From the NCBI GenBank assembly GCA_947626145.1, contig CANQRB010000005.1, forward strand, positions 1 through 64,000: DNA of 64,000 nt. Direction: 5' to 3'. This document shows, piece after piece, positions 32,593-62,649 of the stretch. How positions within the stretch are numbered: the stretch's first letter is position 1; each line of letters opens with the position of its first letter. The position numbers were made by a program, and so were the translations under genes. The notes below the pieces were generated by a model, which worked only from the letters and a program-made list of their open reading frames with translations, did not search any database and was not told the DNA's origin. This stretch comes from an uncultured Clostridia bacterium. Lineage in GTDB: Bacteria > Bacillota > Clostridia > UMGS1883.

Positions 32593-32669
32593 CTGGGTGT
32601 AGCGCAGTTTGGTAGCGTGCTTGAATGGGGTTCAAGAGGCCGGGAGTTCAAGTCTCCCCACTCAGACCA
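32593..32669 (+). tRNA. tRNA-Pro (GGG), candidate prophage integration site
   Basis: Acceptor CTGGGTG/CACTCAG, D-arm AGCGCAGTTTGGTAGCG, anticodon GGG in CTTGAATGGGGTTCAAG, GAGTTCAAGTC T-arm, A discriminator and CCA. 77 bases. Prophage genes begin about 90 bases downstream, so its 3-prime end is a plausible attachment site. Confidence 0.95.
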
Positions 32670-32672
32670 TGG

Positions 32673-32709
32673 AAAAAAGGCTTGAAACCGAGGGTTTCAA
32701 GCCTTTTTT
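32673..32709 (+). terminator. Terminator of tRNA-Pro
   Basis: AAAAGGCTTGAAACC and GGTTTCAAGCCTTTT pair around GAG, continuing into a T-run. Confidence 0.9.
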
Positions 32710-33484: not shown

Positions 33485-33500
33485 AGCCGCTGTTTCTACG

Positions 33501-33561
33501 AAAAAATTTTTAAAAAAATTTTCAAAAAACACTTGACATACTTGTTTAAGTATGTTATAAT
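33501..33561 (+). promoter_or_regulatory. Module A promoter with internal palindrome
   Basis: An A/T-rich upstream stretch ending CAAAAAACAC leads into TTGACA (33533-33538), 17 bases, TATAAT (33556-33561). Within and around the spacer ACATACTT-GTTT-AAGTATGT is a perfect palindrome, the classic place for a repressor. The upstream stretch and the transcript start (ACCATAGA..GGAGG) are nearly the same in module B. Confidence 0.8.
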
Positions 33562-33587
33562 ATAACCATAGAGAGGAGGTGAAGAAA

Positions 33588-33704
33588 TTGAGCCGGCAAA
33601 AGAAAAACGGCAAGAAGCCTGATACCAACAAAATCCTGCTTCTTACCGCAATCTTTCAGCTTGCAGTTGCCCTGATCGAACTGATCAAGGAACTCACAAG
33701 TTGA
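33588..33704 (+). CDS. Module A peptide 1: basic head plus membrane helix
   Basis: 38 residues starting at TTG, with GAGAGGAGGTG seven to ten bases upstream. The N-terminus is strongly basic (SRQKKNGKKPDTNK). The rest is one amphipathic or membrane helix, ILLLTAIFQLAVALIELI, ending KELTS. Its layout matches peptide 1 of module B at 62038-62163. A promoter on the opposite strand at 33740-33768 would make an RNA complementary to its 3-prime part. Size, hydrophobicity and antisense overlap resemble type I toxins such as TxpA or BsrG, but the charge order differs and no function is proven. Confidence 0.65.
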   Translation: MSRQKKNGKKPDTNKILLLTAIFQLAVALIELIKELTS

Positions 33705-33729
33705 GGGCGGGGGCTTCGGCCCCTTGCCC
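33705..33729. other. GC-rich hairpin in the sense/antisense overlap of module A
   Basis: GGGC-G-GGGGC and GCCCC-TT-GCCC pair around TTCG. On the plus strand it follows peptide 1; on the minus strand it is at the very 5-prime end of the predicted antisense RNA. No T-run follows, so it looks like an RNA-pairing or stability element rather than a terminator. Confidence 0.55.
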
Positions 33730-33739
33730 TGCCATCAAT

Positions 33740-33768
33740 ATTGTATCACGTTTAATCGATCTTGTCAA
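33740..33768 (-). promoter_or_regulatory. Convergent antisense promoter of module A
   Basis: On the minus strand TTGACA (33768-33763), 17-base spacer and TACAAT (33745-33740). Transcription would start near 33733 and read leftwards through the hairpin and the peptide 1 frame. The same arrangement is found in module B. Confidence 0.7.
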
Positions 33769-33784
33769 GTAGGAGGTGAAAATA

Positions 33785-33883
33785 ATGTTGTCAGATATTT
33801 TAAACGTCGTTGAAATCATTCTCGACCTCGCTATCGCGGCGCTGCTCTTTGTCCTGTGGCGGGAGATGAAATCGAAAAAATAA
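33785..33883 (+). CDS. Module A peptide 2: short membrane peptide
   Basis: 32 residues from an ATG with AGGAGGTG six bases upstream. A helix LNVVEIILDLAIAALLFVLW is followed by a basic tail REMKSKK, the reverse polarity of peptide 1. The region just before it carries the antisense promoter. It is followed 16 bases later by the ribbon-helix-helix gene. Too short for a family call; its partner in module B has the same size and a similar tail. Confidence 0.6.
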   Translation: MLSDILNVVEIILDLAIAALLFVLWREMKSKK

Positions 33884-33899
33884 TCGTGGAGGGATAGCC

Positions 33900-34100
33900 A
33901 TGGCTGAAAAACGAAAAACCTACACCTCGGCGGCCGTAAAAAATCGCTATGCCGCCAAAAATTACGATCGCATAAACCTGTTCGTGAAAAAAGGGCAGCG
34001 GGACGCCATAAAACAGCGCGCCGAAGCCCTCGGGATGAGCCTGAACGAATATATAACCGGCCTTGTCCGCTCGGACATGGGAATTTCAAACGATAATTAA
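33900..34100 (+). CDS. Ribbon-helix-helix (Arc/CopG-like) DNA-binding protein of module A
   Basis: 66 residues, GGAGGGATAGCC before the ATG. The core YDRINLFVKKGQRDAIKQRAEALGMSLNEYITGLVRSDM matches the ribbon-helix-helix fold: a beta strand IDRINLFV-like, then helix, then GMSLNEYI turn and second helix. The family binds palindromic operators as dimers and often acts as an antitoxin or autorepressor. The palindrome in the module promoter is an obvious candidate target. The gene ends before a bidirectional terminator. Confidence 0.8.
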   Translation: MAEKRKTYTSAAVKNRYAAKNYDRINLFVKKGQRDAIKQRAEALGMSLNEYITGLVRSDMGISNDN

Positions 34101-34110
34101 CCACACACAA

Positions 34111-34137
34111 AAAACAGGCGCCGCAGGGCGCCTGTTT
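34111..34137. terminator. Bidirectional terminator between module A and the amidase gene
   Basis: ACAGGCGCC and GGCGCCTGT form a perfect stem with A-rich and T-rich flanks, between convergent genes. Confidence 0.85.
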
Positions 34138-61879: not shown

Positions 61880-61935
61880 AGTATATCACAGGTAGTTATG
61901 GACATTCAAGGACATTTATGGACATTTCAGGACAT
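61880..61935 (-). promoter_or_regulatory. Candidate late promoter with four phased ATGTCC repeats
   Basis: On the minus strand four copies of ATGTCC lie exactly ten bases apart (GGACAT on the plus strand at 61900, 61910, 61920 and 61930). They lead into an extended -10 TGTGATATACT (hexamer 61885-61880) without a good -35. Such helically phased sites in place of a -35 box indicate an activator, as in late-gene regulation by ArpU/RinA-like proteins. Confidence 0.65.
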
Positions 61936-61944
61936 CTTTTATTT

Positions 61945-62012
61945 TTTGGGGAAAAATTTTTTTAAAAAATTTCCAAAAAACACTTGACAAACCACGGGCT
62001 TCGTGGTATAAT
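61945..62012 (+). promoter_or_regulatory. Module B promoter with internal palindrome
   Basis: The A/T-rich stretch (..CCAAAAAACAC), TTGACA (61984-61989), 17-base spacer, TATAAT (62007-62012) and downstream ACCATAGAAAGGAGGT nearly repeat module A. The spacer holds ACCACG-GGCTT-CGTGGT, a palindrome different from that of module A. Confidence 0.8.
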
Positions 62013-62037
62013 AGAACCATAGAAAGGAGGTAAGACA

Positions 62038-62163
62038 GTGGCAAAGAAAAACAAAAAGCCCGCCAAGCGCAAGAACGAAATGCTGACAATCGTCATAAAT
62101 GCGTTAGCGGACTTAATCATCGGAACTCTGCTGATACTCATCCAGAAAATGATTGAGGATTAA
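62038..62163 (+). CDS. Module B peptide 1: basic head plus membrane helix
   Basis: 41 residues from a GTG with AAAGGAGGT upstream. A lysine-rich head (AKKNKKPAKRKN) precedes the helix MLTIVINALADLIIGTLLILI and a QKMIED end. Same design as peptide 1 of module A, which has an almost identical promoter. A convergent promoter at 62210-62238 reads antisense across its 3-prime end. A type I toxin-like or membrane-signalling peptide is plausible; unproven. Confidence 0.65.
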   Translation: MAKKNKKPAKRKNEMLTIVINALADLIIGTLLILIQKMIED

Positions 62164-62169
62164 CAGAGC

Positions 62170-62203
62170 GAGGGGAACGGGGCGGCGAGCCGCCCCACCC
62201 CTC
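62170..62203. other. GC-rich hairpin in the sense/antisense overlap of module B
   Basis: GAGGGG-AAC-GGGGCGG and CCGCCCC-AC-CCCTC pair. It lies right after peptide 1 and begins almost at the predicted antisense start, the same placement as in module A. Confidence 0.55.
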
Positions 62204-62209
62204 AAATCC

Positions 62210-62238
62210 ATGATAACACAATAATCCGCCATTGTCAA
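62210..62238 (-). promoter_or_regulatory. Convergent antisense promoter of module B
   Basis: On the minus strand TTGACA (62238-62233), 17-base spacer and TATCAT (62215-62210). The RNA would start near 62203 with the hairpin and run antisense to peptide 1. Confidence 0.7.
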
Positions 62239-62243
62239 GAGCC

Positions 62244-62339
62244 ATGTCAAAAACTTTATTATTTCTTGGCGTATTTTTCATCGCCATAGGCATCGCAAAG
62301 TTGGTTTACGTGCTTATCCGAAAGCGTAAGGGGGACTGA
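62244..62339 (+). CDS. Module B peptide 2: short membrane peptide
   Basis: 31 residues: a helix TLLFLGVFFIAIGIAKLVYVLI and a basic tail RKRKGD, like peptide 2 of module A in size and polarity. There is no strong ribosome site, because the antisense promoter occupies the region just upstream; translation may be weak or coupled. It ends two bases before the GTG of the helix-turn-helix gene. Confidence 0.5.
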   Translation: MSKTLLFLGVFFIAIGIAKLVYVLIRKRKGD

Positions 62340-62341
62340 CC

Positions 62342-62530
62342 GTGGAGACTGTAAAAGAGCTGCGCAAAGCGGCAAAAATGACCCAGCAGGCTTTTGCCGA
62401 CTATTTCGGTGTGCCGAAGCGCACCGTCGAGGACTGGGAGAGCGAAAAGAGCGCGGTAAAGCCTTATTTGCTGGAGCTCATGGAGTATAAGCTGCGCCAT
62501 GAAAAAATTATCGCCGAGGCGGAGGGGTGA
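62342..62530 (+). CDS. Helix-turn-helix DNA-binding protein of module B
   Basis: 62 residues from GTG, AAGGGGG seven bases upstream. METVKELRKAAKMTQQAFADYFGVPKRTVEDWESEKSAVKPYLLELMEYKL is an XRE-type helix-turn-helix with the recognition helix in PKRTVEDWE. It holds the place that the ribbon-helix-helix gene has in module A, so it probably represses the module promoter through its palindrome. The CRISPR mini-array begins 18 bases after its stop, with room for no leader. Confidence 0.85.
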   Translation: METVKELRKAAKMTQQAFADYFGVPKRTVEDWESEKSAVKPYLLELMEYKLRHEKIIAEAEG

Positions 62531-62548
62531 CCCTCCGCATAACCTTAA

Positions 62549-62649
62549 GTTTGTCCGCCCCGCACGGGGCGTGTGAGTTGAAATGACACCGTTTCCAATT
62601 AATGCTACAATACGTTTGTCCGCCCCGCATAGGGCGTGTGAGTTGAAAT
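62549..62649 (+). CRISPR. Two-repeat CRISPR mini-array in the prophage
   Basis: Two 36-base copies (62549-62584 and 62614-62649) with two differences flank a 29-base spacer. Each contains a CCGCCCCGCACGGGGCG-type hairpin and ends GTGTGAGTTGAAAT, the layout of type I-C-like repeats. If the leading GTTT is not repeat, the unit is 32 plus 33 bases, closer to type I-C. A further TAGTTGAAAT follows at 62658. No cas genes are present. The array is read on the plus strand, probably with the upstream gene. Confidence 0.75.

Follow-up and report, generated by a model that had tools for sequence, protein, structure and literature searches.

The window analysed here is a stretch of 64,000 nt on the forward strand of contig CANQRB010000005.1, and coordinates are positions within it unless another contig is named. 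A gut-bacterium prophage of 36.8 kb has its left end in the window and is bounded by a perfect 56-bp repeat in tRNA-Pro (32622-32677 and, on contig C5 of the window's own genome, G000, 69471-69526). The ORF beside the right-hand repeat is presumably integrase-like, judging from its position and our own reading. At the left end of the prophage, facing the endolysin and holin genes, lies a cassette of ~0.6 kb that we call Module A (33500-34137; Table 1). It consists of a promoter of a strength that is rarely matched, two small peptide genes with a convergent promoter between them, and a gene for a ribbon-helix-helix (RHH) regulator, and it ends in a terminator-like hairpin with no antirepressor gene 3' of the unit. 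All of the elements that the initial annotation had placed in this stretch are present where it put them; it did not contain the palindrome in the spacer of the plus-strand promoter, the antisense terminator within the peptide-1 frame or the prophage-end position given by the tRNA-Pro attachment site. What it described as an insulated unit among lysis genes is a cassette at a prophage end, convergent to the lysis genes and not itself a lysis gene.

Table 1. Features of Modules A and B in the window.
Feature	Position	Strand	Description
A/T-tract	33500..33532	+	5' of Module A promoter; start common to window and G007; tract also before Module B
Plus promoter of peptide/repressor operon	33533..33561	+	TTGACA-17-TATAAT, 12/12, extended -10 (TGn)
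Spacer palindrome	33536..33555		ACATACTT-GTTT-AAGTATGT, perfect 8+4+8; predicted RHH operator between -35 and -10
Peptide 1, 38 aa	33588..33704	+	TTG start; basic at the N-terminus, followed by a hydrophobic helix; predicted toxin
Predicted antisense RNA, about 135 nt	33598..33733	-	Three hairpins; z -6.4, -5.4
Predicted antisense intrinsic terminator	33598..33649	-	Hairpin plus UUUUUCUUUU from Lys-rich peptide-1 codons; -21.7 kcal/mol
GC hairpin	33705..33729		Adjoins peptide-1 stop; 5' stem-loop of antisense RNA
Antisense promoter	33740..33768	-	TTGACA-17-TACAAT, TGn, 11/12; -35 at 33768, -10 at 33740
Peptide 2, 32 aa	33785..33883	+	ATG start; helix then basic C-terminus
RHH regulator, 66 aa	33900..34100	+	phrog_13890, match 1.2e-14
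Terminator-like hairpin	34112..34137		Separates cassette from convergent endolysin gene
Module B promoter	61984..62012	+	ACCACG-GGCTT-CGTGGT in spacer (61991-62007); arms kept in G007
Module B peptide 1, 41 aa	62038..62163	+	GTG start; basic then helix
Module B antisense promoter	62210..62238	-	TTGACA-17-TATCAT, TGn
Module B peptide 2, 31 aa	62244..62339	+	Helix then basic
Module B regulator, 62 aa	62342..62530	+	XRE-type HTH_3; Pfam 33.9 bits, cut-off 23

As in type I toxin-antitoxin loci, a short hydrophobic peptide is encoded on the sense RNA, and a putative antisense RNA gene, recognised at the sequence level from its promoter, predicted fold and predicted terminator, overlaps the peptide gene. 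Peptide 1 has no family match in Pfam, NCBIfam or PHROG, a tblastn search with it against phage records returned nothing even at E 10, and profile searches gave convincing matches in G007 and G097 only. An RNA-family scan of the window and related loci identified tRNAs only. The AlphaFold2 model of the RHH regulator (pLDDT 82) matches Arc, AmrZ, TacA and CopG, and nearly all of its top Foldseek matches are RHH proteins, each of these individual matches having a weak E-value; against the NikA-like Pfam family the protein scores 21.8 bits, under the cut-off of 27.

The whole of Module A is also carried by G007, a Clostridia MAG of the same genus (contig CANRJP010000012.1), where homology begins sharply at about 33497 next to an unrelated 5' flank. 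Between the window and G007, synonymous sites diverge by 0.19 for peptide 1 and by 0.23 for the RHH regulator, and the stretch with the hairpin and antisense promoter (33705-33784) differs at 1 position in 80 nt, the antisense promoter itself being identical. Both arms of the spacer palindrome are kept, and its 4-nt core is replaced by its own reverse complement. The initial annotation had proposed a check for lack of conservation of the two peptide frames; both frames are conserved, with a pooled pN/pS of 0.10 that is based on only 8 changes (6 synonymous and 2 non-synonymous), each single peptide comparison resting on few changes.

Module B (61925-62530) repeats the cassette within the same prophage: the A/T-tract, the promoter, the leader ANAACCATAGANAGGAGGT and the GC hairpin recur, and its predicted antisense RNA folds with a z of -6.1. 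It differs from Module A in having an XRE/HTH_3 regulator in place of the RHH protein and CCACG..CGTGG in place of CATACTT..AAGTATG, and it too is conserved in G007. Directly behind it lie two 39-nt repeats (62546-62584 and 62611-62649; 92% alike, spacing 65) that contain a GC palindrome, end in GTGTGAGTTGAAAT and look like a two-repeat remnant of CRISPR type.

More distant copies were recovered in several ways. A search with the RHH regulator found G097, which has the same gene order, about one-third peptide identity and a location at a prophage end, and a search with a 27-nt promoter/leader motif, for which neither the peptides nor the regulator were used, gave further copies in prophages of distant Clostridia, namely G140, G328, G362, G181 (two copies, a and b), G055 and G172, the last cut by a contig end and bearing the CCACG operator of Module B. 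From phrog_2277, which is the third gene in G140, the search extended to Listeria phages and Streptococcus agalactiae prophages with a cassette 5' of the same gene: in 14 Listeria phage records a single place covers at least 80% of the cassette stretch used as query, and the S. agalactiae prophages have promoter/leader matches, one copy of which was read through. In four Listeria phages (L229, L231, L235 and L236) and in S. agalactiae phage Javan17 (L233), the cassette is present with phrog_2277 as its third gene, peptide 1 is unannotated and peptide 2 is at most labelled 'hypothetical'. The Javan17 cassette adjoins paratox. No such cassette lies 5' of the phrog_2277 gene of Streptococcus phage Javan237, and Clostridioides phage CD1801 was rejected as a copy, its match being confined to the promoter.

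Spacing is uniform across the 11 tabulated copies from 9 lineages: the distance from promoter to peptide 1 is 46-74 nt and that from the peptide-1 stop to the peptide-2 start 52-81 nt. The predicted antisense RNAs of Module A, G097, G328, G362, G181 (both) and G055 fold with z-scores of -3.5 to -6.9 relative to dinucleotide shuffles, hairpins followed by a U-run are found within peptide 1 of Module A, G328, G181b and G055, and most copies have a hairpin of the GGGGC..GCCCC type at the antisense 5' end. Good support for the type I-like sense/antisense geometry first seen in Module A comes from its recurrence, from RNA folding and from the terminator of the antisense RNA. Both peptides recur across the copies, and peptide 2 is present in every two-peptide copy that was read through; their opposite polarity, which had been taken as characteristic, is not fixed, since peptide 1 runs basic-then-helix or helix-then-basic depending on the copy and peptide 2 is mostly helix-then-basic. 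Among the Listeria phages, peptide 2 is under purifying selection (5 synonymous changes, 1 non-synonymous), and for peptide 1 purifying selection is not clear, with pN about equal to pS in comparisons with LP-HM. This and several other features of the copies weigh against the toxin-antitoxin reading set out below: by consensus, the antisense promoters are weak in the Listeria and streptococcal copies and in G097, G140 and G181a, the Shine-Dalgarno sequence (SD) of peptide 2 is often poor, G055 has a divergent third gene or none, and that of G181b is a 50-aa ORF of no matching family that precedes an antirepressor-like gene. The neighbours of the cassettes are terminase, lysis or antirepressor-like genes.

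What changes with the third gene is the sequence between the -35 and -10 elements. CATACT..AGTATG occupies the promoter spacer of the RHH copies in five lineages, the CCACG..CGTGG palindrome accompanies the XRE regulator, and TACATGTA or TACTATCGATAGTA accompanies phrog_2277; at the level of sequence, then, operator type tracks the family of the third gene. In shuffle tests the spacer palindrome is strong in G328, G362, G181a, G097 and Module A (P 0.0003 to 0.005; for Module A 0.005-0.015), while Module B and G172 give marginal values and G181b, G055 and the copy from S. agalactiae show no significance. Other consensus promoters make a weak reference set, since RHH-gene promoters account for many of them. 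The operator of Arc lies between the -10 and -35 elements of Pant. The palindrome of Module A, a predicted operator, likewise occupies the spacer of the cassette's own promoter and is paired with an RHH family, and the RHH regulator probably represses the shared promoter.

The closest relative in layout is yonT/SR6/yoyJ of the Bacillus subtilis prophage SPbeta, in which a single polycistron encodes two peptide toxins and an antisense RNA, SR6, lies between the two (PMC5848175). Like Module A, it is a prophage locus with an extended -10 promoter and two small peptides in a polycistron, which for Module A is predicted. SR6 is about 100 nt long and, like the predicted antisense RNA of Module A, starts from a promoter between the peptides and overlaps the 3' end of the first. 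In Module A as well, two peptides share one predicted transcript with an antisense promoter between them. However, SR6 also overlaps the yoyJ ribosome-binding site, whereas the antisense RNA of Module A would start 5' of peptide 2 and point away from it: its predicted start at 33733 leaves the peptide-2 SD (about 33771-33777) uncovered. Compared by description, yonT/SR6/yoyJ also differs in that the available text mentions neither a cassette-encoded DNA-binding gene nor an operator in the promoter spacer (PMC5848175). The initial annotation had known of no system with two peptides and a DNA-binding gene; two peptides have a precedent in yonT/SR6/yoyJ (PMC5848175), and the literature searched gave no case with a DNA-binding gene added.

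Other systems share parts of the arrangement. The par/Fst family of pAD1 resembles Module A in that a toxin mRNA and an antisense RNA converge, the RNAs are structured, the peptide is a membrane peptide and mobile elements carry the locus, but it encodes a single peptide and lacks a regulator gene (PMC7472228), whereas Module A has two peptides and a regulator. Neither the direct repeats DRa/DRb, which par/Fst has at both RNA 5' ends, nor its shared bidirectional terminator was seen in Module A, in which the sole repeat spanning both parts is the SD pair, outside the antisense RNA. Prophage type I loci of Clostridioides difficile such as CD0977.1-RCd11 likewise combine a clostridial prophage setting, a hydrophobic Lys-tailed peptide and a convergent antisense RNA, but with one peptide each and, in the text available, no mention of a repressor gene (PMC7699646, PMC6563280). 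The immunity I region of P22 (arc, mnt, sar, ant) is a phage moron that joins autoregulatory RHH repressors and an antisense RNA in one operon (PMC2629481), a combination that Module A is predicted to share; it controls an antirepressor, whereas Module A would target a membrane peptide and has two peptides and an interchangeable repressor family, and no antirepressor gene under antisense RNA control was found in it. The nearest layout is that of yonT/SR6/yoyJ (PMC5848175) and the nearest control logic that of P22 arc/sar/ant (PMC2629481), and Module A lacks one defining detail of each. In the open-licence literature searched, neither this combination nor any type I locus that carries a repressor of its own was found described, an absence that is weak evidence of novelty because the search covered open-licence papers only.

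Taken together, the layout, its conservation, the RNA folding and the match between operator type and the family of the regulator, which the sequences themselves establish, point to Module A being a prophage type I toxin-antitoxin cassette of yonT/SR6/yoyJ-like layout with a cassette-encoded autorepressor acting by a logic like that of P22 Arc/sar, a reading to which we assign a probability of about 0.64. We infer the transcripts, the toxicity of the peptides, inhibition by the RNA, repressor binding and an addiction or abortive role. One promoter would drive an mRNA for peptide 1, a putative membrane toxin, for peptide 2, a second membrane peptide that is probably a weaker toxin in the manner of YoyJ, and for the regulator, which would bind the spacer palindrome and thereby repress the whole operon. 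The convergent extended -10 promoter just 5' of peptide 2 would constitutively produce the structured antisense RNA, which may pair with the peptide-1 message and block it or mark it for RNase III. Antisense RNA and repressor would both hold the peptides off in the lysogen; were the repressor or fresh antisense RNA lost, through prophage loss, derepression or an incoming phage, the peptides would act on the membrane.

An alternative that retains most of these parts is a moron like P22 immI, in which the peptides would be, instead of toxins, membrane factors for superinfection exclusion or regulatory peptides whose level in the lysogen is set by antisense RNA and repressor. The P22 moron does combine RHH proteins (Arc/Mnt), the sar antisense RNA and ant (PMC2629481), and the G140 and G181b copies adjoin antirepressor-like genes; we nonetheless consider this unlikely, given that no antirepressor lies behind the unit in the window, that the antisense RNA faces the upstream membrane peptide rather than the ribosome-binding site of a downstream gene, and that the size, helix and Lys-rich tail of the peptides are typical of type I toxins. 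Less probable still is that peptide 2 is an immunity peptide neutralising peptide 1 in the membrane, with the antisense RNA as a second safeguard only. Its placement with the repressor and outside the antisense RNA, which could allow it to be made while peptide 1 is silenced, and its presence throughout the two-peptide copies read through would fit such a role, but both peptides come from one promoter, and YoyJ, which takes this position in SPbeta, acted as a second toxin of lower strength (PMC5848175).

The endolysin and holin genes beside Module A and the G097 and G362 copies raise the question of a lysis-timing unit, with pinholin or antiholin peptides under antisense RNA. Module B and the G328 and G181a copies adjoin terminase genes instead, and a normal holin is present, while transcription of the cassette, which includes a repressor, runs opposite to that of the late genes, so we regard this as highly improbable. 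Frames as short as those of the peptides are common, which would suit chance open frames beside promoter look-alikes, an explanation that can practically be dismissed when order, spacing and RNA hairpins are shared by nine diverged lineages found in part with a peptide-free motif.

RHH genes are also associated with other loci that resemble type I systems. In Clostridia, a strong antisense promoter whose -35 element abuts the SD was found at 14 of 52 RHH genes of this class and at 1 of 72 control genes (P 1.7e-5). Membrane peptides of 20-34 aa that end in KK lie 5' of these RHH genes, and the 5' and 3' UTRs of the KK-peptide loci pair with compensatory changes in 10 of 22 predicted pairs. These loci belong to a type I-like family of Clostridia, reached by RHH-anchored searches, that has a single peptide, a GGAGCGGCGGCGGCTGTTCC leader (GCGGCGG), IKNIKK tails and a near-invariant antisense promoter; its members, among them L012, L015, L018, L021, L036, L038, L039 and L057, are unannotated, and it has no Rfam, Pfam or NCBIfam match. 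An RNA model of this family, R1, has matches in 88 of 391 Clostridia genomes, often several per genome. Relatives standing alone without an RHH gene are abundant, and none of 42 further R1 places examined is followed by one, so that RHH coupling concerns a subset of the R1 family. Several stand-alone copies are found in the window's own genome (G000 contigs C13, C15, C17 and C21; L131-L135). Module A is not among the R1 matches listed and was treated as a separate lineage. The excess of strong antisense promoters abutting the SD of RHH genes, behind short peptides with covarying UTRs, offers independent support for the pairing of RHH genes with type I loci.

Viral contigs L175 and L177 carry a par/Fst-like locus with a repeated AAAGCCCC and a 43-aa membrane peptide, about 290 bases 5' of an RHH gene, and with palindromes of the ATATTGCGCAATAT type in the spacer of the toxin promoter. 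L172 and L188 have the same promoter/RHH layout but encode a soluble, charged 46-aa peptide, with an antisense promoter seen in L172. One viral scan used a constructed, consensus-like RHH probe, and the loci that it returned were judged on their own. Judging from the layouts, RHH genes apparently became coupled to type I-like loci on more than one occasion.

Type I systems are seen as RNA-controlled and type II systems as controlled by autorepressing DNA-binding antitoxins. The recurrence of one layout with different repressors in unrelated prophages, in copies whose sequences are hardly recognisable as related, points to a toxin system that is widespread, is controlled by RNA and can exchange its repressors. 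More tentatively, at somewhat worse than even odds, the cassettes may be immunity-coupled type I systems in which repressor and operator (RHH, XRE or phrog_2277) form a swappable specificity module before a fixed peptide-antisense-peptide core; each prophage would then license its own toxins, Modules A and B could coexist without cross-talk, and the role would lie in prophage retention or competition between phages. The cassette puts a name on peptides of Listeria and Streptococcus phages that are unannotated or 'hypothetical', and the model predicts a clear signal in strand-specific RNA-seq. If it is true, an antisense RNA and an autorepressor are joined in one cassette, with repressor and operator swapped as a unit while the core is kept, which would link the control of toxin-antitoxin systems to the specificity of phage immunity.
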